Virus record (IMG/VR): IMGVR_UViG_3300025154_000068 | Location: 19,035-83,034 of that record | DNA length: 64,000 nucleotides | Strand: one strand, 5' to 3' | From: a virus | Shown here: positions 34,941 to 46,832 of the stretch, one piece after another | Layout of the letters: every line of letters starts with the position of its first letter | Numbering within the stretch: position 1 is the first letter of the stretch | Made by a program: the position numbers and the translations under genes | The notes under the pieces: generated by a model | Database searches by the model: none | What the model saw: only the letters and a program-made list of their open reading frames with translations | What the model was told of the DNA's origin: nothing

Positions 34941-36799
34941 AGGTCCTCGACGACAGCGACGCGTCCCGCGAGCTCCGCCAAGATGGTCGCCTTGTGGGCG
35001 AGTTGCTCGAATGCGGCGTTGTCCTTGACCTGCCCATAGTGCTCGGCGAGCTGCGTCCGAAGACGCTCCGGCCAATCGTCCCCGTCCTCGAGGTCGTCGA
35101 TGAGCTCGAGCAGCTTCGCCACGTCGGGCTCGATGGCGCGGGCGGTCACCTGGGCAGCGTCGGTTGCGATGTCGTCAACGAACTGCTGGCCGTTGATGAC
35201 GCCGGACGCCTTGGCTGGGTCGTCGCCAGAGGCGAGGGTGATAGAGCGCGCCGACAGCTTCGCCTCAATGATGGGTCCGACGATGCGTGGCACTTCGGCT
35301 TGCAGCACCTGGTGGAGCCTTCGCTCAGTTTCCGCCATAGCGTCAGCGACAACCGCGTCCCAGACGGGACGCCGACGGCTCGCCTTGACGTCTTCCGCAT
35401 CGTCCTGTGGCTCTGCGTCGTCCCCTTCGTTCGACGCATCCTCGTCACCTCCGAACTGCGGCGGAACCGGCGCTGGCTCCGACTCCTCCCACTCTGCCCC
35501 TTCCTCAAGAGGCATCCCGAACGTCCGTGCGTACTCGTTCTTGTCCACCGGAGCGCCCAACCCGAGCCACTTCTTCAGCGCGTCAGCGGCCTTGTCCCAC
35601 GTGGTGGCGAGTGCTGCAGTGTCCGCCGGCGGTGTCGTGTCGCGCTTCGGCCAAGGGGCCTTGCGTCCATCGCCGAAGTTGAACGCCGCCCACCACCAGA
35701 TGAGCTGCGACCGAATCGTCGTGGCGCTGGTCTCGTCGTCGGCGCGGATGATGGCCGCCGCCACCGCCGAGTGCACCTGCGCAGCGGCGTAGCTCCCGCC
35801 CTGAACCTCGGTGGAGAGGTTCTGTCCGAGGATGCGAATCGCGATGGCCGCGTTGGCCATGTTGATCTGCGCCTGGAACGTCTCCCAGGTGTCGGCGACA
35901 GCTTCGACGAGCTTCAGATCGTAGCCTGGCGGCGTAACGATCGTTGTGTCCCGCCCGAGGTCGGAGATGTCGCTCGCGAGCTCGTCGCGGTGCTCCCTGG
36001 TCGACCCCTCGTCGGTCGGGAATCCGACGAGCGTGCCCTGCCCGTGGCGCTCCGAATAGCGCCCCCAGTCGTCCCGGCCGTACTCCTTCAGGAGCCACCA
36101 GCGCGATACTGACCGCCACGCTCCTCGCGCCCACGGACGCTTGCTGCCGTACGGCGTGTACAGCAGCCACGTTCCGTCACCGGGGGTGACCTCGAGCTCG
36201 GAGCCGTCCTTCTGCCGAGCGAACCACTTGCGCTTGTCCTGGTCGTACCGAAGCGACGATGGGTGGATGACGTCGAAGCCGGGAGTCCCGTCCTCCCGGT
36301 GGGGGATGAGTCGGATTCCGCTCGGCTGCTCGACGCGCTCCCACGACGCAATCCGACCGACGCCCACACCGAGGATGATGCCCCACTCCATCCACTCGGA
36401 GAGGACGTCCTCGGGGACCATGTCCCACCAGTCCTCCTCGAGCTCCTCGAGCGGGGCGTTGGTATCCTGCTTCGGCGGCTGGAACTCGAGAGGCAGCCCC
36501 AGCAAGCCCCGGACGCGCACCTCGCGCAGACACCCGCTCACTCGGTCGTCGGCGAGAATCTCATCGCACAGCAGAGCGGCAAGCCGGAGGTTGCCGGTGT
36601 CCGCCATCGCCTCCGCACGCTTGATGAGCGTGGGCGACCACTCGATTGACGACGAACGGACGGACGACTCGATGAACGGCGCAGGTTTCGGGATGCGCGG
36701 CACAACAGTCGCAGCGAGCGACACGGCACTGGCGATAGCGAGCACACGCCTCCCCACTTGCGTGAGAGTCGTCGATGCTCTGGTTCGCCAGTGGGTCAT
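34937..36799 (-). CDS. Portal protein, DUF935/Mu gp29-like (620 aa)
   Basis: The family is recognisable from SGCLREVRVRGLLGLPLEFQ, WGIILGVGVGRIASWERVEQ, DGTPGFDVIHPSSLRYDQD, LLYTPYGSKRPWARGAWRS and DDWGRYSERHGQGTLVGFPT, all typical of DUF935 portals. The portal ring is the DNA gate and the docking site for terminase and neck. The C-terminal third adds an acidic linker and a helical domain (RRLHQVLQAEVPRIVGPII). The gene is 4 bases after terminase and overlaps MuF by GTGA. Confidence 0.85.
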   Translation of the reverse strand: MTHWRTRASTTLTQVGRRVLAIASAVSLAATVVPRIPKPAPFIESSVRSSSIEWSPTLIKRAEAMADTGNLRLAALLCDEILADDRVSGCLREVRVRGLLGLPLEFQPPKQDTNAPLEELEEDWWDMVPEDVLSEWMEWGIILGVGVGRIASWERVEQPSGIRLIPHREDGTPGFDVIHPSSLRYDQDKRKWFARQKDGSELEVTPGDGTWLLYTPYGSKRPWARGAWRSVSRWWLLKEYGRDDWGRYSERHGQGTLVGFPTDEGSTREHRDELASDISDLGRDTTIVTPPGYDLKLVEAVADTWETFQAQINMANAAIAIRILGQNLSTEVQGGSYAAAQVHSAVAAAIIRADDETSATTIRSQLIWWWAAFNFGDGRKAPWPKRDTTPPADTAALATTWDKAADALKKWLGLGAPVDKNEYARTFGMPLEEGAEWEESEPAPVPPQFGGDEDASNEGDDAEPQDDAEDVKASRRRPVWDAVVADAMAETERRLHQVLQAEVPRIVGPIIEAKLSARSITLASGDDPAKASGVINGQQFVDDIATDAAQVTARAIEPDVAKLLELIDDLEDGDDWPERLRTQLAEHYGQVKDNAAFEQLAHKATILAELAGRVAVVEDL

Positions 36800-42491: not shown

Positions 42492-42943
42492 GCTGCCATC
42501 CTTTCTCGAACGCTTCGCTCCACCGCCTTGGCGTCACCCACGCTGCGGACTACGGCGTAGACACCACCCGCCGCCTCGTGCATGGCCTGCCACTCTCGCT
42601 GCTCCGGGGTCTGGTCCTCGTCGTCGTCGCGCTTCACCTCTAGCGCGACCGACACCCCGCACACCACGCCGAGGATGTCCGCGGTGCCCTTCGGTGCGGC
42701 CTTGAACAACCCGCGGCCGGCCTCCCCGGCCTTCGTCGTGTACTCGTATACGCGCCTGCCGCTATTCGCGCGCCACCAGTACGCCTTGCCGTCGCGCGAG
42801 ACGTACAGACCTGTCCGGACCCACTTGCCCTTGCCGGTCTTCTTCGAGATCTCGTAACGGCGCCTTTCGACGCCGAGCGATGCCAGGATCCAATCCTGCA
42901 CGCTGTGCTCGAGCGGGCCTCGGAGTTGGAATCTACGCGGCAT
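42488..42943 (-). CDS. VRR-NUC domain nuclease (151 aa)
   Basis: The start MPRRFQLRGPLEHSVQDWIL overlaps the DnaB stop (TGATG). The core GTADILGVVCGVSVALEVKR has the D...ExK catalytic arrangement of VRR-NUC nucleases. It is followed by DQTPEQREWQAMHEAAGGVY and VRSVGDA, the family's C-terminal helix. The fold cuts branched DNA, a Holliday-junction-resolvase-like role in replication or packaging. The length is that of a lone phage VRR-NUC. Confidence 0.85.
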   Translation of the reverse strand: MPRRFQLRGPLEHSVQDWILASLGVERRRYEISKKTGKGKWVRTGLYVSRDGKAYWWRANSGRRVYEYTTKAGEAGRGLFKAAPKGTADILGVVCGVSVALEVKRDDDEDQTPEQREWQAMHEAAGGVYAVVRSVGDAKAVERSVRERMAA

Positions 42944-44283
42944 CACCACCCTCCTCCGCGCGGACCGGGTTCGTCGTAGTCCGCCAGATCGTCGAACCGG
43001 GTGTAGACCTTCTGCCACGCAACCTTCGTCGAGCCGGTTGCGCCGTTCCGGTTTTTCGCGACGATGATGTGCTGGACTGTTTCGCTGTCCGAGCTCGGGT
43101 GAATGAAGATCACCTCGTCGGCGTCCTGTTCGATGTTTCCGCTCTCGCGAAGGTCGGAGAGCTGCGGGCGCGCGGACTTGCCGCGCTTCTCGACGTCCCG
43201 GTTGAGCTGCGAAAGGCACAGCACGACCACCCCGAGGTCCTTCGCCAGCGCTTTCAGTCCCTTGGAGTTCTCGCCCACCTTCTCGTCCCGACTCTTGAGC
43301 TTCGGGTCGGTCGCCATCAGCTGCAGGTAGTCGATGACCACGAGACCAAGCGGCGTTCCCTGGCGCTTGAACCCGGCCGCCATCCGCCGTGCCTTGGCCC
43401 GAAGTGACGCGAGGGAGATCGAGGACTCGTCGTCAACATCGATCGGGAGCTTCCCGAGCCGCTGGCATTCGGTGGACAACCTGGACCACCCCTCTGCGTC
43501 CAGCTTGTTGGTGCGCAGGAGTTGCGAATCCACGCGGGCTCCGGAGCACGTCACACGGTCAACGAGCTGCTCTCGCGGCATCTCGAGCGAGAACACGCCA
43601 ACGCCGATGTTTCTCTCGGCCGTGCTCACCGCCATGTTGTTGAGCGCGAGCGATGTCTTGCCCTTCCCCGGGCGAGCAGCGAGGTAGCACAGGTCTCCCG
43701 GTTGCAGCCCGGCCAGGATGGCGTCCACGTCGAGCAGCCCGGTGCGCACCGCGGATGTTTGCGCGAGGCCGGATTGCAGCGCCTTGAAACGCTCCCGAAT
43801 CACGTCCTTGAGCCGAGCCGGCTTGATAACCTCGTAGCGCTGGGTCGCCGCCAGAATTTCACGCTCCGCCCCGTCGATGAACTCGTCCGGGTCGCTCACG
43901 TTCTCGTTCTGCGCTTCCACTGCGACTTTGCGACACGTGGTAATGATCTGGCGAAGCCGCCACTTGTCGCGAACGCGCAGCGCGAGCTGCTCGACGTTGG
44001 CCTGCATCGGCACCTCGTTCACGAACTCGGCGATGGTCTTCGCTCCGCCAATCCGCTGGAGCTTACCGCGGTCCTCCAGCCATCCTTTCACGACCACCGC
44101 GTCGTACTCCACTCCAGCCTCCCGGAGCGAACGCAATGCCTCATAGACCTGTTTCGTCACGTCGCTGTAAAACTGCTCCGGCGTGACGATGGGAATGACC
44201 CGATCGAGGAAGTCGACCGATATCAGCGCTGCGCCCACGATGGCCTGCTCCGCGCTCACGTCGCGTGGAAACAGCTCGTTCAC
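42943..44283 (-). CDS. DnaB-like replicative helicase (446 aa)
   Basis: GTG at 44283 with GGAGGTG upstream overlaps the initiator stop. The DnaB N-terminal domain is visible (AEQAIVGAALISVDFLDRVI), then the RecA-like core with Walker A RPGKGKTS (residues 204-211), GVFSLEMPREQLVDRV, Walker B LGLVVIDYLQLM and LSQLNRDVEKRGKSARPQLS. It unwinds the fork 5'-3' as a hexamer. It follows the initiator gene, a typical initiator-helicase pair. Confidence 0.93.
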   Translation of the reverse strand: MNELFPRDVSAEQAIVGAALISVDFLDRVIPIVTPEQFYSDVTKQVYEALRSLREAGVEYDAVVVKGWLEDRGKLQRIGGAKTIAEFVNEVPMQANVEQLALRVRDKWRLRQIITTCRKVAVEAQNENVSDPDEFIDGAEREILAATQRYEVIKPARLKDVIRERFKALQSGLAQTSAVRTGLLDVDAILAGLQPGDLCYLAARPGKGKTSLALNNMAVSTAERNIGVGVFSLEMPREQLVDRVTCSGARVDSQLLRTNKLDAEGWSRLSTECQRLGKLPIDVDDESSISLASLRAKARRMAAGFKRQGTPLGLVVIDYLQLMATDPKLKSRDEKVGENSKGLKALAKDLGVVVLCLSQLNRDVEKRGKSARPQLSDLRESGNIEQDADEVIFIHPSSDSETVQHIIVAKNRNGATGSTKVAWQKVYTRFDDLADYDEPGPRGGGW

Positions 44284-45428
44284 GACGCACCTCCAAACAT
44301 GGCTTGACGCTGCCGCTGGTAGTCCGCCTGAGCCTTCGCTGGATCAACGGCCGCATCACGCGACCACGGCGTGCCGTACGTCGAGAGACTCTTGAGAATG
44401 AACCGGATCGGGTGACGGGCATCCACGAGAAATCCATCTCGCCCGTCGTCCCGTAGGTACGCCGCGAACCAGTGCTCAAGCACCTCCTGCACAACCGGCT
44501 CGACCGGATCGCCCGGCTTGCCGCGTGCCTGCAGCTCCGAGATCGCCTCGGACAGCGCTCGCTCAGCGACCTTGCCCATCGTGCCCCTACAGTCGCCGTT
44601 CTCGACGTACTTGCCGTACTTGCGCCGACTGGTCGCGTACATCTTGCGCCAGATCGAGAACGCTTGGCCCACCGGGGCCTTGGGCTTCAGTTCAGGTTGC
44701 TTGGCCTTCCGGCGCTTCGACTCTGGGGGCGAGTCCGGGACAAGGGCCAACAGCTCAGGCTTCAGGTCCGGGTCCGGGTCCGGCAACGCCACCGGCGCTT
44801 GGGGCGGGACCGGATCGGTCTCGCCCGTACCGTAGGTACGTATCTCTTCTCTCTCTTCTCTTCTCTTCTCTTCTCTACGTGACGCCGTGTGACCGCGCGT
44901 GACGGTGGCATCACAGTTTGTGACTGTTGAGTCACGTGGCGTGACGGCGCCGTCACGTGGCGTGATGACGCTGGATTGTCTGGACCCATCACACGGCGTT
45001 GCGTCTACTGTGGGCCCATTGGGGGGGTCGAATGAGCCTCGTGACGAGGTGTCACGTGGCGTGACAGGCTCATCGAACGCTCGGGCCCGGGCGCGTCGCT
45101 TCTGTTGGCGCACTCTGTCGCTCTGCTTCGACTCCTGGGCCTCCACAAAGTTCGGGACTTGCAACAGGGTCTCGTCACTGAGGAAGTGAATGGCGCCGTC
45201 TTCCTCGAGAACCCCGACCATCTCCGCGAGGTCAGCGTCCCAGGTTGCAGAGAGCGCCGCGGCGATGGCCTTGCGACCAGCTTTCCCAAGACGCATCACC
45301 CCAGCGGGGTCCAAGCGCTTCAGAATCTCGTCGAACAATCCCCGCGCCTTCCACGGGAGCACGAGCCATTCCGGCTCGTCGCGCGTGTAGAGCTTGATCC
45401 ATCGCTCATCTTGCCAGTCACGCGACAT
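44280..45428 (-). CDS. DnaD/O-like replication initiator (382 aa)
   Basis: The ATG at 45428 gives MSRDWQDERWIKLYTRDEPE. The first about 115 residues (WLVLPWKARGLFDEILKRLD ... FLSDETLLQVPNFVEAQESK) form the winged-helix domain of phage replication initiators. A low-complexity linker (VTPRDGAVTPRDSTVTNCD, then RREEKRREEREEI) is encoded by DNA carrying iterons. The C-terminal domain (PVGQAFSIWRKMYATSRRKY) may load the helicase encoded next. The layout mirrors lambda O, where the origin lies inside the gene. Confidence 0.75.
   Translation of the reverse strand: MSRDWQDERWIKLYTRDEPEWLVLPWKARGLFDEILKRLDPAGVMRLGKAGRKAIAAALSATWDADLAEMVGVLEEDGAIHFLSDETLLQVPNFVEAQESKQSDRVRQQKRRARARAFDEPVTPRDTSSRGSFDPPNGPTVDATPCDGSRQSSVITPRDGAVTPRDSTVTNCDATVTRGHTASRREEKRREEREEIRTYGTGETDPVPPQAPVALPDPDPDLKPELLALVPDSPPESKRRKAKQPELKPKAPVGQAFSIWRKMYATSRRKYGKYVENGDCRGTMGKVAERALSEAISELQARGKPGDPVEPVVQEVLEHWFAAYLRDDGRDGFLVDARHPIRFILKSLSTYGTPWSRDAAVDPAKAQADYQRQRQAMFGGAS
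44842..45064. other. Candidate replication origin: TCAC-N5-GTGA iterons plus polypyrimidine tract
   Basis: Iterons TCAC-N5-GTGA start at 44911, 44932 and 44953, exactly 21 bases (two helical turns) apart. A degenerate copy lies 21 bases before the first (44890). Further copies start at 44989 (imperfect) and 45052, 63 bases apart. Three are the identical 13-mer TCACGTGGCGTGA. Next to them, 44842-44875 is an uninterrupted C/T tract on the plus strand. All lie within the initiator gene. Confidence 0.65.
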
Positions 45429-45999
45429 CTCGGCTCCATGCTTCTGCGATTTCGATTGCCTCAAACGCGCACATCTCGGGCGATTCGAAGACCTCGGTCG
45501 CCATGAATCGAAGCGTCAGGATTCCAAGCGCTGCCATCGATCGGTCGCGTCGCCGGTCCGTGACCATCCGTTCGAATGTGCTGTGGTGGCGAATACTGTC
45601 CACTTCGACCACCACGCGAGACCTGCCCCCACCGTTCAGAATGAAGTCCGCTCGGTAGGCGGCACGGCCGGTCTTGATGACTACCTGCTGCTCGAGGGTC
45701 ATGCCGCGAGGAAGCAACGCAGTCAGCGCGGCGAGAAGGAGCTCTTCTGGCGGACTCTCGGACCGGTCCTCGACCGGCTTGGGAGGAGCGACGGCGCGAA
45801 CGGCGATGGCCTCTTCGGTGATGATGTGCCCGCCTTCCGTCGATTCCCACAGGCCGAGCTCCTTGAACCGGTCGTGGAACCGATCTGCCAGGTCGAACTG
45901 GACCGTCCGGCTGCGACTGAACCTGGCGCGCGCCGCCACCGCCGCCCAAACGAGGCGCTCGTCATCAGAGAGCTTCGCGAGCTTCTCGTCGTACGTCAC
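45418..45999 (-). CDS. DUF559/Vsr-like endonuclease-domain protein (193 aa)
   Basis: GTG at 45999 with GGAGGTG upstream overlaps the preceding stop. The N-terminal half is helical (KLAKLSDDERLVWAAVAARA). The C-terminal half has RAAYRADFILNGGGRSRVVV followed by EVDSIRHHSTFERMVTDRRR and MAALGILTLRFMATEV. This is the D...ExD/RR pattern of the DUF559/Vsr-like PD-(D/E)xK fold. It may nick or process DNA in replication. It sits between the DUF5131 gene and the initiator. Confidence 0.65.
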   Translation of the reverse strand: MTYDEKLAKLSDDERLVWAAVAARARFSRSRTVQFDLADRFHDRFKELGLWESTEGGHIITEEAIAVRAVAPPKPVEDRSESPPEELLLAALTALLPRGMTLEQQVVIKTGRAAYRADFILNGGGRSRVVVEVDSIRHHSTFERMVTDRRRDRSMAALGILTLRFMATEVFESPEMCAFEAIEIAEAWSRDVA

Positions 46000-46832
46000 T
46001 CGCACACCTCCGGCACTTCGGCCCACACGCGCCCATCCAGCTCCGGGAGCTCCACGAGCCGACCGTCCACCGGGCCTTGCTTGTACAGAAACGGCACTCC
46101 AGCCTCTGCGCATTGGTCCCGAAGGCTCCGCACCCAATCGAGCTCAAGAGGACGCCCGAGGCGTTTTCCTGGGGCGCTCTCGCAGCCGCAGATGACCCAA
46201 CCAACGGGCCACTCCCACGTCCCACCCGTCGACGGGACGCGAGGGTCAGGGTGCTGTAGCCGCTCTCCGCTATTCGATATCAGAGTCGGCCTCAAATGAC
46301 GTCGAAAGTCAATCGCCCCCAACATCGGCTCGACGGACACCATCGTCTTGCACCTCAGTGCGAGCAGCTTCACCACATCGCGATCGGCCGCACCCTGGTC
46401 TTCGACCGTGATGCCCACACGGACGTGATCCGGGAATTCGCCGGGCTTCCACGGCAACAAGTGCGCGTTCTCGATCCTCTTCGTGAGAATCAACCACTCA
46501 AGATTCGTGGTCTCCTCGATGATGGAGCACGCCCGCTTGCGGGGCTCCACGAGCTCCGGTCGGTCCTCGAGGAAGTCGCCCATCGACATGCAGAACACCC
46601 GTGGCCGAACCCCAGAATCCGCGGCCTGCCGATTCCACACCAGCGGGTCAGACCAAACCTTGGGGGAGGCAATGCGCCGCTGGACGCCGTGCCCGAAGAC
46701 GTTCTTCCCCACTCGCTTTGCGAAGGCGTGGGCATAACACGCATCGCACGCTCGCCGGTCGGGAAGCTTCGCGCAACCCCACCAGAAGTTTTGCGTGGAA
46801 TCACACCAAGCTATGCCGGTTTTCGCTCCCAT
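45996..46832 (-). CDS. DUF5131 (phage Gp37/Gp68-like) protein (278 aa)
   Basis: The product starts MGAKTGIAWCDSTQNFWWGC and has a Cys cluster (WGCAKLPDRRACDACYAHAF) then VFCMSMGDFLEDRPELVEPR, TNLEWLILTKRIENA and HVRVGITVEDQGAADRDVVK. This is the signature of the DUF5131/Gp37-Gp68 phage family, whose Cys triad suggests a radical-SAM-like iron-sulfur centre. Grouped with three DNA methyltransferases, it may take part in DNA base modification, which is inference. Confidence 0.8.
   Translation of the reverse strand: MGAKTGIAWCDSTQNFWWGCAKLPDRRACDACYAHAFAKRVGKNVFGHGVQRRIASPKVWSDPLVWNRQAADSGVRPRVFCMSMGDFLEDRPELVEPRKRACSIIEETTNLEWLILTKRIENAHLLPWKPGEFPDHVRVGITVEDQGAADRDVVKLLALRCKTMVSVEPMLGAIDFRRHLRPTLISNSGERLQHPDPRVPSTGGTWEWPVGWVICGCESAPGKRLGRPLELDWVRSLRDQCAEAGVPFLYKQGPVDGRLVELPELDGRVWAEVPEVCE

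Follow-up and report, generated by a model that had tools for sequence, protein, structure and literature searches.

A probable replication origin in the linker of a phage initiator gene, where DNA repeats constrain the protein sequence

The virus DNA analysed here (the window: the whole stretch of 64,000 nucleotides, part of an 83-kb IMG/VR virus record) carries a cluster of short repeats inside the gene of its replication initiator, which raises the question of whether these repeats form a replication origin embedded in the gene or are a protein repeat seen through its codons. An earlier note on this DNA had described three TCAC-N5-GTGA iterons spaced 21 bp within the linker of the initiator. 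All three are exact and lie in the linker, with cores at 44911, 44932 and 44953. The "degenerate fourth" iteron of the same note is present as a sequence at 44890, but it is more convincingly assigned to a set of three direct GTGAC half-sites with a pitch of exactly 10 bp (44879, 44889 and 44899). Of the copies said to lie 63 bases apart downstream, that at 45052 is exact, while that at 44989 is a half-site only (TCACACGGCGTTG). The pure polypyrimidine tract of 34 bases beside the iterons was found as described, and it consists of TCTCT pentamers plus one 4-mer, being purine on the coding (-) strand; the note had missed the tract's 5-nt period as well as the run of half-sites at 10-bp pitch. 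All features are listed in Table 1.

Table 1. Coordinates of the initiator locus and of the repeats within it (window positions)
Feature	Position	Strand	Basis or remark
Replication initiator ORF, 394 aa counted from TTG	44280..45464	-	relatives' alignment
N-terminal winged-helix domain and basic stretch, presumed iteron-binding domain	45080..45428	-	AlphaFold model and structural matches
Linker carrying the predicted origin array	44840..45079	-	
DnaB-like replicative helicase, gene after the initiator	42943..44283	-	DnaB_C E=2.5e-80
Distal iteron GTCAC-N5-GTGAC	45051..45065	.	core TCAC-N5-GTGA at 45052
Half-site GTGAC, 10 bp from the distal iteron	45041..45045	+	
Degenerate iteron ATCAC-N5-GTTGC, one good half-site	44988..45002	.	
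Iteron GTCACGTGGCGTGAT	44952..44966	.	core TCAC-N5-GTGA at 44953
Iteron GTCACGTGGCGTGAC	44931..44945	.	core TCAC-N5-GTGA at 44932
Iteron ATCACAGTTTGTGAC	44910..44924	.	core TCAC-N5-GTGA at 44911
Direct half-site 1 of the 10-bp run, GTGAC (coding strand GTCAC)	44899..44903	+	
Direct half-site 2 of the 10-bp run	44889..44893	+	
Direct half-site 3 of the 10-bp run	44879..44883	+	
34-nt polypyrimidine tract, 5-nt period (TCTCT), presumed unwinding/loading tract	44843..44876	+	

Exact TCAC-N5-GTGA occurs five times in the 64-kb window, four times in the linker and once at 36177. In 100 dinucleotide shuffles of the window, the motif averaged 1.17 copies and never reached five; synonymous resampling from the initiator gene's own codons gave a mean of 0.87, with 5 of 5000 draws reaching the observed four. 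Chance is no explanation for the cluster. In the window phage, the repeated DNA also encodes, in one frame, a repeated heptapeptide (VTPRDGA, VTPRDST, VTNCDAT), so that constraint on the DNA and constraint on the protein are indistinguishable from this one genome, and the VTPRD heptapeptide might have been kept for the protein's sake, with the DNA repeat as a by-product.

A first scan for viral contigs with two tandem iterons yielded 19 stretches, about a dozen of which belong to linkers of initiators of this kind, and the motif was read as VTxRD in some of these linkers and as S(R/Q)xVT in others. Because this set had been selected for its iterons, the family was collected anew with a profile of the N-terminal domain only, which found 58 viral loci and three loci in metagenome-assembled genomes (Burkholderiales, Deltaproteobacteria and Chloroflexi bins). 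Once near-duplicates and the window's own sequence were removed, the relatives numbered 50 genes (51 with the window). Exact TCAC-N5-GTGA is found in 40 of the 50 relatives and the motif with at most one mismatch in 49, and none of the 50 combines an intact initiator with the absence of an array. Together they hold 74 exact iterons compared with 10.2 expected under synonymous codon resampling (n=50), a conservative null since the amino acids are kept.

The same iterons are read as S-x-x-V-T in 38 cases and as V-T-x-R-D in 36, and never in the third frame, which would put TGA in frame. At spacings of 20, 21, 23, 31 and 42 bp, the iterons preserve their face of the helix and not their codon position. 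Codon choice is similarly biased: serine is encoded by TCA in 75 of 80 S[RQH]xVT motifs versus 51 of 537 serines elsewhere, and arginine by CGT in 32 of 34 VTxRD motifs versus 81 of 1018 elsewhere. The frame of the first iteron switches at least 10 times on the N-terminal-domain tree, which has weak support (stars on 3 of 48 inner branches), and both frames are used within 13 of 41 linkers. Since the same DNA signals are read in different frames, it is the DNA repeats, not the protein, that dictate the linker sequence. A heptapeptide kept for its own sake, suggested by the single frame in the window phage, is refuted by the frame switches and retains virtually no probability: relatives encode the same DNA as S[RQ]xVT in another frame, pitches of 20 and 10 bp are no multiples of three, and the codons are forced to suit the DNA. 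In the linker, DNA constrains protein, and selection acts at the DNA level independently of frame. The suggestion that DNA function had shaped the linker protein, together with the proposed comparison with relatives whose linker protein varies, has thus held up strongly.

The half-sites form a ladder of their own. Distances from GTCAC to GTCAC peak at 10 (109), 20 (100) and 30 (54) bp, and also at 40 bp, and runs of at least three GTCAC at exactly 10 bp are found in 31 of the 51 genes versus 0.63 expected. A step of 10 bp is not divisible by three, so successive half-sites of a run fall in each of the three frames in turn, and this accounts for the family consensus VTxxHxxSxxVT. The 10 relatives without an exact palindrome have 10-bp half-site runs, mixed half-sites or a GTTAC/GTAAC variant instead. 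In one relative (L036) there is no GTCAC or GTGAC at all, and all eight half-sites are GTTAC or GTAAC at the usual pitch; in another (L048) the half-sites are partly changed. Such a concerted change of scattered sites in L036 fits the effect that a changed binder would be expected to have. These two genes also bear on the possibility that the array is an origin whose GTCAC sites are bound by a host protein or another phage protein instead of the initiator. The same half-site does occur in several sequence-divergent groups of initiators, as such a binder might predict, but the joint change in L036 and the partial one in L048 fit a co-evolving, phage-borne binder, and the conserved partner of the array is the N-terminal winged helix; we therefore regard binding by another protein as improbable. 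In a control scan, GTTAC at 10 bp gave 116 matches, of which 20 were in ORFs of at least 150 aa and one was initiator-like, compared with 71 of 93 GTCAC matches in such ORFs.

Beyond the half-sites lies the periodic tract. When 38 genes were aligned on the last GTCAC, C was found at +6, +11, +16 and so on to +46, with G one base ahead of each later C. The tract is about 45 nt long in the family and repeats five bases at a time (CCTAG or CCGTG, for example), with five-base purine units instead in the window and in L031. Its self-match at lag 5 is 0.518, versus 0.378 under synonymous resampling and 0.293 sixty bases on, and 28 of the 38 genes match themselves best at lag 5. The first 40 nt of the tract are the least stable stretch of the region, with 1.35 and 1.11 TA steps per 20 nt versus about 0.2 (about five-fold), and at 57% GC on family average the tract is weak relative to the region, not AT-rich in absolute terms. 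A TA-rich weak tract of this sort is what an unwinding element would be predicted to look like in GC-rich phages. DnaT binds 2 nt per subunit (PMC4132743), which was considered as the source of the 5-nt period and is insufficient alone.

The family alignment favours the ATG at 45428 as the start of the window initiator, the relatives' alignment beginning with M-x-W-x-[DN]ER. Its N-terminal domain is modelled by AlphaFold as a winged helix (pLDDT 86.8). Foldseek alone found no confident structural match for this model. In a second-look structural alignment, ranks 1, 2, 3 and 5 (Z 8.2, 8.1, 8.0 and 7.6; rmsd 5.4-6.4 A) went to entries that, judging by their titles and by the pSK41 and pTZ2162 structures, we take to be RepA_N initiator domains. 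The match is suggestive but does not prove kinship with RepA_N. The RepA_N profile PF06970 matched neither the window protein nor the 50 relatives (E 0.01), and Phage_rep_org_N (PF09681) matched four of the 51 family members at E<0.01 (best 1.8e-5), the window protein not among them. The window initiator has no PHROG or Pfam match and no match to an O-like profile; the C-termini of some relatives match O-like PHROGs. Among relatives, the C-terminal domains are exchanged (DnaT, Phg_2220_C, DnaD-like, O-like), and the N-terminus and the array remain together. The initiator ORF overlaps the DnaB helicase gene downstream of it by 4 nt, and a DnaB or IstB/DnaC-like ATPase gene comes directly after the initiator in 16 of 20 relatives tested. 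The gene upstream of the initiator (45418-46137, minus strand) overlaps the initiator start and has weak similarity to DUF559/MTES_1575 nucleases, and in one relative (L046:2501-3841) a T5orf172/MUG113 domain is inserted in the initiator directly ahead of the array.

Arrays of this type are not confined to the family. When four GTCAC at 10-bp pitch were searched for, at least 120 stretches were found, and among the matches listed many are linkers of other phage initiators, including a type that E. coli prophage annotations call primosomal protein I, DnaT-like or replisome organiser. Pseudomonas phage phi1 (its initiator gene is without annotation), Escherichia phage Tritos and Aeromonas phage pAEv1818 are cultured phages in which the linker has one GTCAC run and a loop of the N-terminal domain another, and their runs are accompanied by a periodic tract. 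The loci with two GTCAC 10-bp runs in one initiator gene, one of them in the N-terminal loop, are L207:2501-3397, L208, L210 and L211, from phages of Pseudomonas, Escherichia and Aeromonas. The presence of the array in cultured phages of these three hosts makes it testable. No origin annotation was found at the arrays in the phage records examined, no description of GTCAC arrays in the open-access literature, and no named phage akin to the window family by tblastn with two queries. E. coli K-12 ydaU has no GTCAC, so that oriJ, an active origin of the Rac prophage, is not usable as functional support; the linker of ydaU (L205:6120-6977) contains repeats resembling TGTTCAA and a GATACA/GATAAA tract, which may be another type of site in the same layout.

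Several further matches were seen. A small ORF with an SSB-like tail (L006:5953-6357, minus strand; ending DDEDLPF) has three VTPREN/TCAC-N5-GTGA repeats at 21 bp near a RecT-like gene, and appears to be an array in another replication gene. Another small ORF (L008:486-1001), zinc-ribbon-like and no initiator of this kind, contains four copies of GTCAC-N5-GTGAC. In Pseudomonas phage PACT201 (L212:2470-3400), the initiator region has several frame breaks and the GTCAC runs are intact. Five prophage contigs (L111, L140, L177, L109, L130) have GTCAC 10-bp runs without a long ORF over them, and two AT-rich phage contigs (L007, L018) have GTCACATTTTGTGAT palindromes at 21-bp pitch, with no ORF of at least 80 aa over them, which resemble a regulator's operators. 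Tail-protein-like matches with LTVTAGD repeats (L010, L013, L024) were rejected as chance pattern matches.

The order of the elements is fixed in the family: palindromes, then 10-bp direct half-sites, then the weak tract of 5-nt period, at one- and two-turn pitches and placed between the conserved winged-helix domain and the C-terminal domain, which is exchangeable; the gene that follows encodes DnaB or a DnaC-like protein. The array is very probably a phage replication origin inside the linker of its own initiator gene; we infer both initiator binding and origin activity. GC skew, offered earlier as a check, gives no support, as there is no turn at 45 kb in the 64-kb window, which counts against an origin, as do similar arrays in a few non-initiator genes and between genes. 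Intragenic operators, through which the initiator or another phage regulator would control transcription at a site that is no origin, are an unlikely alternative even though palindromes are usual for repressors and some prophage contigs have GTCAC arrays without a long ORF over them: the array is found some 350-450 bp into the gene and almost always within the linker, a weak periodic tract comes after it and a helicase gene lies beside it, and a regulator has no need of such a placement or tract. For an origin, we propose that the N-terminal domain may bind the palindromes as dimers, that further initiator molecules may align on the direct half-sites along one helix face, that this assembly could open the adjacent tract, and that the C-terminal domain would then recruit the helicase encoded next door.

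A broader proposal, which we hold only tentatively and consider less probable than not, is that palindromes, 10-bp half-site ladder and 5-nt tract are a widespread phage module in which the tract is a register for initiators on the opened strand, a pentanucleotide counterpart of the DnaA-trio, and that the whole module slides between frames. Half-site spacing and frame account for the linker amino acids VTxRD, SxxVT, VTxxHxxSxxVT and AVPSRAVPSR, an unusually clean example of DNA function writing protein sequence. The array also offers a route to origins in phages known from sequence alone, and raises a testable question on the role of the 5-nt tract.

Origins in the linker have been shown experimentally for lambda O and for RepA_N plasmid initiators (PMC7466680, PMC6022878, PMC5703833). 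The likeness to lambda O drawn in the earlier note fits in architecture: lambda ori in gene O, and that of lambdoid Stx phages, has palindromic iterons in the linker between a DNA-binding N-terminus and a helicase-loader-binding C-terminus, with an easily opened tract adjoining and the helicase-loading gene next (PMC7466680, PMC6022878). Lambda, however, has its own iteron sequence, 18-bp iterons and a 39-bp AT-rich tract, whereas the family has the additional 10-bp half-site run and the 5-nt-periodic tract, and the window protein has no O family match. The pSK41 Rep of the RepA_N type binds, through a winged-helix N-terminus, Rep boxes placed centrally in rep, where the ori-encoded stretch is the linker, and its C-terminus is host-specific (PMC5703833); it differs in belonging to a plasmid and in its boxes, and the window protein has no PF06970 match and an rmsd of about 6 A. 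The Phage_rep_org_N replisome organisers and the Rac/YdaU-like (DnaT-like) initiators of enteric and Pseudomonas phages share a helical or winged-helix N-terminus, a basic stretch and linker GTCAC runs at 10 bp followed by a purine-rich periodic tract, but are weakly similar in sequence, often have a second GTCAC run in an N-terminal loop and have few or no palindromes. The DnaA-trio of bacterial oriC is likewise a short-period tract beside double-stranded initiator boxes (PMC10797057), with a period of 3 as opposed to 5, and a functional analogy between the two tracts would be speculative. Compared with these systems, the array is best read as an intragenic origin of the lambda O/RepA_N plasmid kind, whose internal layout appears to be new.
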